Shown piece by piece: positions 26,056 to 37,909 of a DNA stretch of 64,000 nt. Each line of letters starts with the position of its first letter. The stretch's first letter is position 1. The notes below the pieces were generated by a model that was given only the letters and a program-made list of their open reading frames with translations, was not told the DNA's origin and did not search any database. A program made the position numbers and the translations under genes. Source of the stretch: Thalassotalea hakodatensis (GTDB taxonomy: Bacteria; Pseudomonadota; Gammaproteobacteria; Enterobacterales; Alteromonadaceae); the NCBI RefSeq assembly GCF_030295995.1, contig NZ_AP027365.1, forward strand, positions 682,001-746,000, in the 5' to 3' direction.

Positions 26056-26784
26056 TTAGGCTTTTGCTTCAGCTTCTGAGCGAATGATGGCTTCATCAAT
26101 AAGTTTCAACGTGGCAGATTGTGTTGTCATGGCAAACTCATATGCTTTAGCTGCTTCACCATTTTTGATTGCTGCAAATAAATCGGCATGTGCTTGGTAT
26201 TCGAGCTCTGTGACCGGCTTTATACGATTGGTGTAACGTAAATTTACTTGTAAGGCGATTTCAATAAAGTTTTCTAATTGTATGAAAAATGGATTTTTAG
26301 TAGCATTTAACACGGCTTTATGAAATTTCACATCAGCGTGATGAGTCGCTTCAGCGTCGTTATTCACCTCTGCTAGTTGCATATTTGATAGGGCTTGCTC
26401 GATATTTTCAAAATCTTCCGCGGTTGCATACTGCGCTGCTAAGTATGCGGCTTGTGCTTCAACAGGCTGTCTTAATTGCATAAAATGGCGCAGCATATAC
26501 AAATCAGGCTTACCGACTAATATCCAACCGAGCACGTCTGTGTCAAACAAGTTCCATTTATTTTGTTCTGCGACTTGAATGCCTTTGCGTGGCCGTGAAC
26601 TGATTAAGCCTTTTGCGGTTAGCATTTTGACCGCTTCGCGGGTTGCATTACGGCTAATATCGTAAACTTCGCCTAATTCAGCTTCAGACGGGAGTTTATC
26701 TCCGACTTTGTATTTACCTTTTAAAATTGAACGGCCAAGCTCGTGTACAAGTTGTTGTGTTAAATTTAAGTGCCTAGCGTCCAT
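26056..26784 (-). CDS. GntR/FadR-family transcriptional regulator
   Basis: A 242-residue regulator. The N-terminal winged helix has LGRSILKGKYKVGDKLPSEA and YDISRNATREAVKML; the C-terminal FCD domain (about 90-230) has a metal/ligand site with Asp and His (HHADVKFHKAVLNAT). FCD regulators of this kind respond to small acids or sugar derivatives and usually repress the neighbouring pathway. It is transcribed away from the beta-galactosidase gene, 242 bases apart. A near-palindrome overlaps the likely -10 box of that gene, which supports local control. Confidence 0.88.
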   Translation of the reverse strand: MDARHLNLTQQLVHELGRSILKGKYKVGDKLPSEAELGEVYDISRNATREAVKMLTAKGLISSRPRKGIQVAEQNKWNLFDTDVLGWILVGKPDLYMLRHFMQLRQPVEAQAAYLAAQYATAEDFENIEQALSNMQLAEVNNDAEATHHADVKFHKAVLNATKNPFFIQLENFIEIALQVNLRYTNRIKPVTELEYQAHADLFAAIKNGEAAKAYEFAMTTQSATLKLIDEAIIRSEAEAKA

Positions 26785-26967
26785 GAGTTACCTTTTACTG
26801 AATTCTAAAGCAGATTTTAGTCTGCATAATGTGCTGATAATAAATGAGTAATTTACTTTACTCCAGTAATAACTACACAATTGGTATATTAAATACTATA
26901 AATGATAAAAATGTTATTTAATAACATGGTGTTACAAAAGTAGTATGGAAAAAAGTATATTTATCTC

Positions 26968-27006
26968 TTGTCAGTAGTTTTGTATATTGTAGTATAAATA
27001 GTACAA
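26968..27006 (+). promoter_or_regulatory. Candidate promoter and operator of the beta-galactosidase gene
   Basis: TTGTCA (26968-26973) and TAGTAT (26990-26995) are spaced by 16 bases, like a sigma-70 promoter. The -10 lies within the imperfect palindrome TTGTAGTATAAATAGTACAA (26987-27006), a plausible site for the divergent GntR protein. The element ATACTATAAAT also occurs at 26893 and in the palindrome before the TonB receptor (32795). Confidence 0.45.
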
Positions 27007-27026
27007 AGTTTTACAGGTTTATAATA

Positions 27027-35647: not shown

Positions 35648-35681
35648 TTTTGAATTGATTAAACGAGAAGTACATATTTTT

Positions 35682-36749
35682 ATGAGTCAAACGCATATTT
35701 GGTTACGTGCCGAAACAAAACCTCAGGAACAACGTACCGCGCTAACCCCTAAAGGTGCAAAAGCATTGATTGAAGCCGGCTTTAAAGTGTCGGTTGAACA
35801 GGGGTCACAAAACATTTTTAACATTGAACAATACCGAGCCATGGGGTGTGAAATTGTCGCACAAGGAAGCTGGCCACAGGCACCCAAAAGTGCTTTTATT
35901 CTAGGGTTAAAAGAATTACCTGAAGATAGTTTTCCATTGGTTCATAAACATATTTATTTCGCCCATGCTTATAAAGATCAAGCAGGTGCAAATGACATAT
36001 TATCACGCTTTAAACAAGGTGAAGGTGCACTATACGATTTAGAATTTTTAGTCGATGAAAACCAACGCCGAATCGCCGCTTTTGGTTACTGGGCTGGCTT
36101 TGCTGGTGCAGCGCTTGGCGTATGGGCTTGGGCAAATAAACAACTTGGAAAAACAGCATTATCGCCTGTGAGCTCCTTTCCCGATCAAGAAAAGTTATTA
36201 AATGAAGTGTCGGCGTTGCTTGCACAATGTGCAAATAAACCAAACGTCATGGTTATTGGTGCAAAAGGGCGAAGTGGTTCCGGCGTACTCGGCTTAGCCA
36301 AAGCATTGCAATTAAGCACCATTGAATGGGATATGGAAGAAACCGCGGTAGGCGGGCCATTTGAGCAAGTGAATGATGCGGATGTATTAGTTAATTGTGT
36401 ATTGGTTAACCAGGACTTGCCGCCTTTTGTGACGCTTTCTTCCCTTGATTCGGCAGAACGTAACCTAAGTGTTATTTGTGATGTTAGTTGTGATCCGTAC
36501 GGTGATTATAACCCGATTCGAATTTATGACCATTGTACCACCTTCAATAATCCGACGATCGAAGTACTATCACCGCCAAATAGTTTACATTTAATTGCGA
36601 TTGATCATTTACCTTCATTATTGCCAAAAGAAAGCAGTGAAGATTATGGCCAGCAGCTAGTGCCTTATTTAGCATCTTTACATGATTTGAGTCTGCCTGT
36701 TTGGCAAAAAGCACTCGATATCTATCATCAAAAAACGACAAACCTATAA
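35682..36749 (+). CDS. Saccharopine dehydrogenase, L-lysine-forming type (LYS1-like)
   Basis: A 355-residue protein of the alanine-dehydrogenase-like saccharopine dehydrogenase family. It opens with IWLRAETKPQEQRTALTP, the substrate-binding start typical of LYS1, and has FAHAYKDQAG near 100, GYWAGFAGAALG near 135 and a nucleotide-binding segment MVIGAKGRSGSG near 197. LYS1 enzymes interconvert saccharopine + NAD with lysine + 2-oxoglutarate + NADH. ATG 35682 fits the family start; an upstream TTG at 35655 adds nine unneeded residues. Eleven bases separate it from the second saccharopine dehydrogenase. The saccharopine route is uncommon in proteobacteria. Confidence 0.86.
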   Translation: MSQTHIWLRAETKPQEQRTALTPKGAKALIEAGFKVSVEQGSQNIFNIEQYRAMGCEIVAQGSWPQAPKSAFILGLKELPEDSFPLVHKHIYFAHAYKDQAGANDILSRFKQGEGALYDLEFLVDENQRRIAAFGYWAGFAGAALGVWAWANKQLGKTALSPVSSFPDQEKLLNEVSALLAQCANKPNVMVIGAKGRSGSGVLGLAKALQLSTIEWDMEETAVGGPFEQVNDADVLVNCVLVNQDLPPFVTLSSLDSAERNLSVICDVSCDPYGDYNPIRIYDHCTTFNNPTIEVLSPPNSLHLIAIDHLPSLLPKESSEDYGQQLVPYLASLHDLSLPVWQKALDIYHQKTTNL

Positions 36750-36760
36750 GAGAACTTCCT

Positions 36761-37909
36761 ATGAAATCAACCATTCATTGGCTTGGCGTTGGGCTATCTG
36801 CCACGCCAGGGATCAAATACCTATCAAATTCATCACATAACCTAGTGGTATGGAATCGTCGTACTGATAAAGCGCAAACCATGCTAGATGAGGCAAATAT
36901 TCAATGTGAATTAAAGCAGTTAGATTGGTCTGTTTTAGCTGAAAATGTTAAATCAGGAGATATTTTAGTCTCGATGTTACCGGCTAATATGCATGTTGAA
37001 GTGGCACAGCTTTGTTTAGATAAATCAGCGCACTTTGTTTCAAGCAGCTATATTGCGCCTGAAATGAGAGCGCTTGATCAACAAGCAAAAGCGAAAGGCT
37101 TAACCTTTATCAATGAAATTGGTTTAGATCCAGGCATTGATCACTTATTCGCACATTTATTAGTGGCACGCTTCAAAGAAAGTGAAGCGTGTAATGCAGA
37201 ATCAAAATTGTATTTTCGCTCATATTGTGGCGGCTTTCCAAAAACGCCGAATGACTTTAAGTATAAATTCAGCTGGTCACCGTTAGGGGTACTTAAAGCA
37301 TTAACCTCGCCTGCTAAGTGGTTAGAAAATGGCGTAGAAAACAACTCGAAAGGTCCGTGGGAAGCGTTAAAAGATATTCATATCAGCGCTGTTAATGAAA
37401 CATTTCAAGCGTATCCAAACCGCGATTCTATTCCTTTTGTTAAGCAATATGAATTTGAACCTGAGTGGCAAGTTGAAGAGTTTGTTCGTGGCACGTTACG
37501 ATTAAATGGTTGGTCACAAGCGTGGCAATATTTATTTGATCAAGTAGGCGACCTACAGGGCGAAGCTGGTTTAGCAAAAATGGAAGCCATTAGTAAAGAC
37601 TTAGAAGACAAGTATAGCTATGAAGAAGGTGAACCTGACCGTGTTGTTATGTCTGTTGAGTTAGAAGCAAAACAAGCAGATAACACCGTTTGGCACCAAC
37701 GTTACTATATGGACGCTGCAGGTAATAATGAAGGACAAGCAATGGCACGTTTAGTGTCAATTACCGTGGCATTGGGTATTGAAGCGGTGATCAATGGCGA
37801 TATTCCTGCAGGTGTTCATGCTGCACCTAGTCAGCCTGATATTGCACAACAATGGTTAGATAAACTCTCTAAACTTGGCCAATCGGTACACATTGAACAA
37901 CTTGTTTAA
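36761..37909 (+). CDS. Saccharopine dehydrogenase-like protein, glutamate-forming type (LYS9-like)
   Basis: A 382-residue member of the saccharopine dehydrogenase/homospermidine synthase fold: a Rossmann domain (HWLGVGLSATPGIKYLS, then VVWNRRTDKAQTML), the interdomain motif FINEIGLDPGIDHLFAHLL and SYCGGFPKTPNDFKYKFSWS, which matches LYS9-type catalytic domains. LYS9 enzymes join aminoadipate semialdehyde and glutamate to saccharopine, or run in reverse. ATG 36761 is used, not the in-frame TTG at 36701 inside the upstream gene. With the LYS1-like partner it would link aminoadipate semialdehyde to lysine. A strong terminator follows. Confidence 0.85.
   Translation: MKSTIHWLGVGLSATPGIKYLSNSSHNLVVWNRRTDKAQTMLDEANIQCELKQLDWSVLAENVKSGDILVSMLPANMHVEVAQLCLDKSAHFVSSSYIAPEMRALDQQAKAKGLTFINEIGLDPGIDHLFAHLLVARFKESEACNAESKLYFRSYCGGFPKTPNDFKYKFSWSPLGVLKALTSPAKWLENGVENNSKGPWEALKDIHISAVNETFQAYPNRDSIPFVKQYEFEPEWQVEEFVRGTLRLNGWSQAWQYLFDQVGDLQGEAGLAKMEAISKDLEDKYSYEEGEPDRVVMSVELEAKQADNTVWHQRYYMDAAGNNEGQAMARLVSITVALGIEAVINGDIPAGVHAAPSQPDIAQQWLDKLSKLGQSVHIEQLV

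Follow-up and report, generated by a model that had tools for sequence, protein, structure and literature searches.

A candidate regulon core for use of the collagen unit glucosyl-galactosyl-hydroxylysine in Thalassotalea hakodatensis and its relatives

Why should an exported beta-galactosidase be encoded beside a kinase-lyase fusion protein and two saccharopine-pathway enzymes? The question is raised by a locus of Thalassotalea hakodatensis within the 64,000-nucleotide stretch of DNA analysed here, called the window (G000:C1:682001-746000; G000 denotes the window genome, 4.28 Mb in size). The original prediction read six genes of this locus as a set for using galactosylated hydroxylysine, an amino acid that marks animal collagen both free and in glycosylated form. 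A check of the open reading frames (ORFs) in the window found all six intact and in the predicted order, and Pfam and NCBIfam matches confirmed their families. A GntR/FCD-family regulator (26056..26784, minus strand; Pfam GntR and FCD) is divergent from an exported LacZ-type beta-galactosidase of glycoside hydrolase family 2 (GH2; 27027..30176, plus strand; NF052611, 1065 bits against a cut-off of 999), the signal sequence of which was judged by eye. The plus strand continues with a fusion of an APH-fold kinase and an AGXT2L-type phospho-lyase (30229..32559; Pfam APH and Aminotran_3), a TonB-dependent receptor (32850..35585; TIGR01782, 695 bits, cut-off 310), proposed to import (glucosyl)galactosyl-hydroxylysine, a LYS1-type saccharopine dehydrogenase (35682..36749) and a LYS9-type saccharopine reductase (36761..37909). 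Judging from the sequence comparisons described below, this locus very probably forms the central part of a regulon by which Glc-alpha-1,2-Gal-beta-O-hydroxylysine, a unit of collagen, is used.

The fusion protein has 776 aa, with the APH kinase at residues 35-254 and a class III pyridoxal phosphate (PLP) enzyme (Aminotran_3) at 370-768. The kinase motif HND..N and the PLP-site motif GKPIGNGHP are invariant in 12 aligned fusions, that of the window included. Its nearest family model, NF004799, is titled 'hypothetical protein' and is matched below its cut-off; a fusion 98% identical to that of the window occurs in the Thalassotalea contig PP2-459 (L050). Both parts expected of a hydroxylysine kinase and phospho-lyase pair are thus present in one chain, and we propose that the protein acts as a hydroxylysine kinase / phosphohydroxylysine phospho-lyase with 2-aminoadipate 6-semialdehyde as its product. 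The saccharopine pathway is represented at the locus by both enzyme types. The LYS1-like protein (AlaDh_PNT) matches the solved proteins 3ugk, 2q99 and 2qrj (yeast Lys1) at 337 bits and aligns with yeast saccharopine dehydrogenase across its length, and for the LYS9-like protein (Sacchrp_dh_NADP and Sacchrp_dh_C) the nearest solved protein is the saccharopine reductase 1e5l at 157 bits. The longest ORFs listed for these two genes begin at upstream TTG codons (35655 and 36701); judged by homology, the most likely starts are the ATG codons at 35682 and 36761, respectively.

The gene content, linkage, co-occurrence and common predicted operator reported here were observed in three samples. The first consists of 147 relatives, in which a fusion genome is one with a full-length fusion of at least 50% identity; there are 16 (G000-G003, G027, G029, G032, G042, G050, G064, G074, G080, G081, G087, G127 and G146), more distant matches (a second G042 copy at 37%, G116 at 35% and kinase-only matches) being left out. 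The second comprises named loci, the best 80 of 573 fusion relatives, with a neighbourhood of about 10 kb and some short contigs. The third is a class-level sample of 239 genomes, G000 included, which has little power.

A product such as 2-aminoadipate 6-semialdehyde, which passages of PMC7253579 call highly toxic to eukaryotic cells, would be expected to have a sink, and two candidate sinks were found. LYS1, counted above 200 bits, is present in 12 of the 16 fusion genomes (a fragment in G074) versus one of the 131 others (G135; Fisher p ~2e-13). The other sink is L-piperidine-6-carboxylate dehydrogenase, recognised by the NCBIfam model NF050084 at its cut-off of 730 bits; it is present in 19 of the 147 genomes, namely 4/16 fusion genomes (G029, G064, G080 and G087) and 15/131 others, a difference that is not significant (p 0.13). 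In all four of the former it directly adjoins the fusion, and none of the 15 fusion-free carriers belongs to the family of the window. Within that family, LYS1 is found in 10 of 14 fusion genomes versus 0 of 75 others, and the dehydrogenase in 4 of 14 versus 0 of 75. Each of the 16 fusion genomes therefore has exactly one sink, LYS1 in 12 and the dehydrogenase in 4, with none having both or neither. A tree of 30 fusions was built by a quick method, and sink labels were given to 29 of the fusions (for named loci the label draws on about 10 kb of flanking sequence). On this tree the sink switches at least six times; the named locus L059 has both sinks and is an exception to the rule. Each of the two sinks uses up 2-aminoadipate 6-semialdehyde (or the ring form of this compound), the product expected of the fusion acting on hydroxylysine. 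The refuting outcome named in the original prediction, saccharopine genes never adjoining the fusion in related genomes, did not occur: besides the genome counts above, LYS1 is at most about 10 kb from the fusion in half of the loci of gammaproteobacterial type (12 of 24), a subset chosen among the 80 by name and similarity.

The comparisons also support counting the beta-galactosidase, otherwise an odd neighbour, as a member of the scheme. A GH2 ortholog of at least 60% identity is present in 15 of the 16 fusion genomes and in none of the 131 others, where the best GH2 reaches 45%, and the GH2 cluster lies near the fusion in 38 of the 80 named loci, more than chance would give, compared with 17 for the regulator cluster and seven for the receptor cluster. 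In G127 the ortholog is found midway along another large contig, far from the fusion, which indicates that the co-occurrence is more than linkage; in G146 it is on a separate 3.6 kb contig, and in G074 it is cut by a contig end. It is noted that the receptor of G080 (L038:17226-19892) is 86% identical to that of the window, against 65% for the fusion and 63% for GH2 of the same genome, which suggests that this receptor was transferred separately.

A second glycosidase, which the original prediction did not include, is a YgjK-type alpha-glucosidase of glycoside hydrolase family 63 (GH63), present in 15/16 fusion genomes versus 10/131 others. A YgjK glycosynthase reportedly makes Glc-alpha-1,2-Gal. 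In the window genome the GH63 gene is at G000:C1:746704-749124 (64704-67124 in window numbering), 704 bp beyond the window end, followed by an SSF symporter gene. It is divergent from LYS1-LYS9 on a contig without the fusion in L160 (G050) and L161 (G081), both from fragmented genomes, and the divergent GH63/LYS1 pair likewise occurs in L051 and L073. It is difficult to account in any other way for a promoter region that an alpha-glucosidase gene shares with saccharopine genes. Collagen hydroxylysine bears Gal or Glc-alpha-1,2-Gal, and animals strip the glucose by PGGHG, according to passages of PMC8626586 and PMC11012932; a YgjK structure has galactose at subsite +1 (part of PMC7263609). The GH63 neighbourhood begins at the window end with a tryptophan-halogenase-family gene (62572..64000, minus strand, cut by the window end), 58% identical to L033:1479-3473 (Trp_halogenase). 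This gene adjoins GH63; it stands directly between LYS9 and GH63 in G002 (L033) and about 24 kb from LYS9 here.

A similar set of predicted activities recurs in other phyla with different parts. Among the 80 named loci, 43 have a beta-galactosidase (GH2 in 38, GH42 in 5), 27 an alpha-glucosidase (GH63 or GH31) and 26 both, and SusC together with SusD is found in 21. Bacteroidota loci combine SusC/D, GH2 or GH42, GH63 or GH31 and the fusion, and some add the dehydrogenase and HglS, a protein of the 2-oxoadipate dioxygenase family. GH42 replaces GH2 in five Flavobacterium-type loci (L080 by Pfam, the other four by BLAST), and GH31 replaces GH63 in L111. GH2 and GH63 form a single protein in L081:5014-9951 and L086:4944-9965, and in the reverse order in the planctomycete locus L110:5007-9983, while L094:9989-13222 encodes kinase, class III PLP lyase and HglS in one chain of 1078 aa. 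The dehydrogenase is present in 7 of the 56 loci that are not of gammaproteobacterial type (three of them cut by the locus end; L104 and L129 pass the model cut-off), and HglS in 10 of the 56. Replacement of each of the two glycosidases by one of an unrelated family for the same type of bond, together with fusion of the parts, points to a route from Glc-Gal-hydroxylysine through the semialdehyde to 2-oxoadipate. HglS was also considered for the window genome and set aside, its PF07063 match there (83 bits) being a short partial match of a type seen in 116 of the 147 relatives.

A common predicted operator would tie these genes together. A word search of 17 GH2 upstream regions, allowing two mismatches, found a 14-base element in 17/17, versus a maximum of 5/17 in the control (three simple shuffles, with a third of the words tried). 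A 19-base matrix was then built from 15 of the regions, leaving out L050 and L066, the closest to the window, and keeping L055 and L057, which are named Thalassotalea. Its best match in the window (26985..27003, unstranded; 23.2 bits) is at the promoter of GH2 and the fusion, where the third of the three best matches also lies (26880). The second-best (32791..32809, unstranded; 14.6 bits) is a predicted second operator at the promoter of the receptor, LYS1 and LYS9, and the same site is found in L031-L033. At 12 bits the window has four matches versus 0.4 in five resamplings, the fourth (58141) being inside an unrelated ORF, and at 10 bits it has eight versus 4.2. Across 37 loci (664 kb) there are 45 matches of 15 bits versus 4 in one resampling, a count that includes one site twice, once per strand, as well as the near-duplicate loci L041 and L062. 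Of these, 24 are at GH2, and 18 of the other 21 are at galT, GH63/receptor, GH63/LYS1, galactose-type SDR, SSF, receptor or gntR/fusion promoters; L160:565, L052:1943 and L058:17923 are outside pathway promoters. L043, L157 and L037 have no match of 11.5 bits. In relatives, GH63 and GH2 carry the same predicted operator, which would place alpha-glucosidase and beta-galactosidase in one regulon, as a collagen glycan would require. Galactose genes accompany them, a galT-galK-SSF set in some loci and a DGOK/SDR/lactonase (De Ley-Doudoroff-like) set in others.

In which direction would the saccharopine pair run? Diaminopimelate decarboxylase is above its cut-off in 15 of the 16 fusion genomes (not in G074, an incomplete genome), so the pair is not the sole source of lysine. 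A degradative version of the pathway needs a semialdehyde dehydrogenase, and none of the 12 LYS1 fusion genomes has one that passes the NF050084 cut-off, the best match in G000 being 263 bits. As the window genome lacks a recognised oxidation step, the simplest reading takes the pair from the semialdehyde to lysine, which is the likely end product there. An alternative keeps the same substrate for the fusion but has LYS1 and LYS9 degrade lysine, so that lysine and hydroxylysine would converge on the semialdehyde, to be handled by another dehydrogenase or by a reductase leading to pipecolate. Passages of PMC7253579 indeed present the saccharopine route as one that degrades lysine in plants, animals and bacteria, and a broad-specificity aldehyde dehydrogenase could serve as the oxidation step; nine matches of the window genome to the dehydrogenase model, all below its cut-off, are presumably other aldehyde dehydrogenases. 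Against it stand the absence of any match above the model cut-off in the LYS1 fusion genomes and the rarity of LYS1 among fusion-free relatives. Considering this rarity and the common predicted operator, LYS1 resembles an outlet for the fusion product and not a second source of it, and we regard the degradative direction as possible but rather unlikely. We lean, with some reserve, toward lysine salvage, in which bacteria of the diaminopimelate pathway would recycle collagen hydroxylysine to lysine with saccharopine enzymes working in the fungal biosynthetic direction. This outlet would have been repeatedly exchanged with oxidation, giving two interchangeable ends of one collagen-glycan pathway across several phyla.

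The link to collagen itself comes from genes elsewhere in the genomes. The co-occurrence of collagenases with the gene set, suggested in the original prediction as a check, was observed: an M9 collagenase is above cut-off in 13/16 fusion genomes versus 30/131 others. A protein of the proline-racemase family is present in 14/16 versus 30/131. The window genome has both a collagenase and hydroxyproline genes, an M9 collagenase at L164:8624-10987 and a hydroxyproline locus with a 4-hydroxyproline epimerase at L165:9641-10654 (579 bits, cut-off 376). G050 (L034), with 13 matches to the M9 collagenase family, has the most of the 147 genomes. Some other hydroxylysine galactoside, from other structural proteins, viral collagens or a bacterial glycoconjugate, would be an improbable natural substrate. 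GH2 and GH63 by themselves are no proof of collagen, and fusion loci also occur in records of many non-marine taxa, as read from the record titles; the co-occurring collagenase and hydroxyproline genes speak for collagen, however, and an alpha-glucosidase together with a beta-galactosidase fits the collagen disaccharide as described in parts of PMC8626586 and PMC11012932.

Several observations weigh against the collagen-hydroxylysine reading of the locus and should be mentioned together. Within about 10 kb, 32 of the 80 named loci have neither a beta-galactosidase, an alpha-glucosidase nor a sink. G042, a fragmented genome, has neither the GH2 ortholog nor GH63, and its M9 match barely passes (27.5 bits, cut-off 26); G003, G064 and G087 have no M9 collagenase. 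The GH63 promoter of the window genome itself has no operator match of 10 bits. The Fisher tests ignore kinship. At class level, the dehydrogenase is above cut-off in 31 of 239 genomes, all without such a fusion, and LYS1 (E 1e-50) is present in three, of which G206 and G361 lack a fusion match at E 1e-150; the LYS1-LYS9 pair of G206 (L178:8820-11045) is about 50% identical to that of the window. A full-length fusion at E 1e-150 occurs in G000 alone (1/239), G239 and G359 matching in the lyase half only. Neither sink is fusion-specific across the class, and each has other uses too; among the 147 closer relatives both are specific, apart from G135 (LYS1) and the 15 fusion-free dehydrogenase genomes. 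The G239 match (L180:1187-4231) is a 1014-aa relative in a different neighbourhood, with a lyase part 55% identical, and is possibly of the longer PRK06148 type.

A last point against hydroxylysine is that, of the solved proteins, the one nearest to the lyase half is human ETNPPL (6tor), an ethanolamine-phosphate phospho-lyase, at 501 bits, followed by an Arthrobacter phospholyase (5g4i) at 322 bits; these two outscore the other class III enzymes among the matches listed, which do not include the animal hydroxylysine enzyme, so that the comparison is not decisive. An ethanolamine kinase / phosphoethanolamine phospho-lyase with sugar and saccharopine genes as chance neighbours is very improbable despite this likeness, because its acetaldehyde product would leave unexplained why 16/16 fusion genomes have one of two aminoadipate-semialdehyde sinks, why HglS adjoins or is fused to the lyase and why the GH2 ortholog is confined to fusion genomes, all of which argues for hydroxylysine.

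For the pathway as a whole, we infer the enzymatic steps, their direction, the receptor ligand and the transporter from sequence. The TonB receptor, or SusC/D in Bacteroidota, would import hydroxylysine with its sugars attached, either as the single amino acid or within a small glycopeptide. The GH63 alpha-glucosidase would take off glucose and the exported GH2 galactose, after which hydroxylysine would pass into the cytoplasm, possibly through the NhaC/ArcD-like transporter encoded at the locus in several relatives. The kinase half of the fusion would phosphorylate the 5-hydroxyl, and the lyase half would free phosphate and ammonia to give 2-aminoadipate 6-semialdehyde. In the window genome LYS9 and LYS1 would convert this compound via saccharopine to lysine; in other genomes piperidine-6-carboxylate dehydrogenase would oxidise it instead. 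The hydroxylysine scheme of the original prediction is strongly supported by comparative genomics; among the rest, 4/16 fusion genomes carry beside the fusion a dehydrogenase for the very semialdehyde it predicted. To that scheme are added the alpha-glucosidase, the common operator and the oxidative alternative, and also the finding that the window genome has no recognised oxidative enzyme, a point in favour of lysine formation.

Two genes upstream of the regulator were also inspected. An arginase-family gene (24940-26040) was rejected as a member, as it adjoins the locus only in L031 (G001) and L050 (PP2-459) among the loci examined; its protein is below the NCBIfam cut-offs shown, the best match being formimidoylglutamase at 62 bits (cut-off 229). 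A large ORF of an RND-type efflux pump, resembling a heavy-metal exporter by eye, occupies 21529-24654.

The gene set gives probable substrates to an unnamed protein family (the fusion), to one GH2 branch and to one YgjK-like GH63 branch, and a specific task to bacterial LYS1/LYS9. It also provides a testable genetic marker for bacteria living on animal connective tissue. Among the papers listed in searches of one open-access library, with subscription papers outside it, none described a bacterial route for the glycosylated hydroxylysine unit.

In vertebrates, hydroxylysine is degraded by the kinase HYKK and then the phospho-lyase PHYKPL to 2-aminoadipate 6-semialdehyde. The same two enzyme folds and reaction order are proposed here, but the bacterial version is one fused protein, accompanied by glycosidases, outer-membrane import and a GntR-type regulon. 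The two saccharopine enzyme families are those of fungal LYS9/LYS1 and of animal and plant LKR/SDH, whereas hydroxylysine is the proposed feed of the pathway here, and its bacterial hosts retain diaminopimelate decarboxylase (15/16 fusion genomes). Polysaccharide utilisation loci share SusC/SusD and glycosidases with the Bacteroidota relatives; in contrast, the target here includes an amino acid, and the locus contains a kinase, a lyase and amino-acid catabolic genes. Human PGGHG, of family GH65, removes glucose from Glc-alpha-1,2-Gal-hydroxylysine (described in part of PMC8626586), a reaction proposed here for a YgjK-type GH63 and, in one locus, a GH31. Finally, lysine catabolism via 2-oxoadipate and HglS, as outlined in passages of PMC7286885, resembles some Bacteroidota loci in its semialdehyde dehydrogenase and HglS family, but entry there would be from hydroxylysine, and this route is absent from the window locus.

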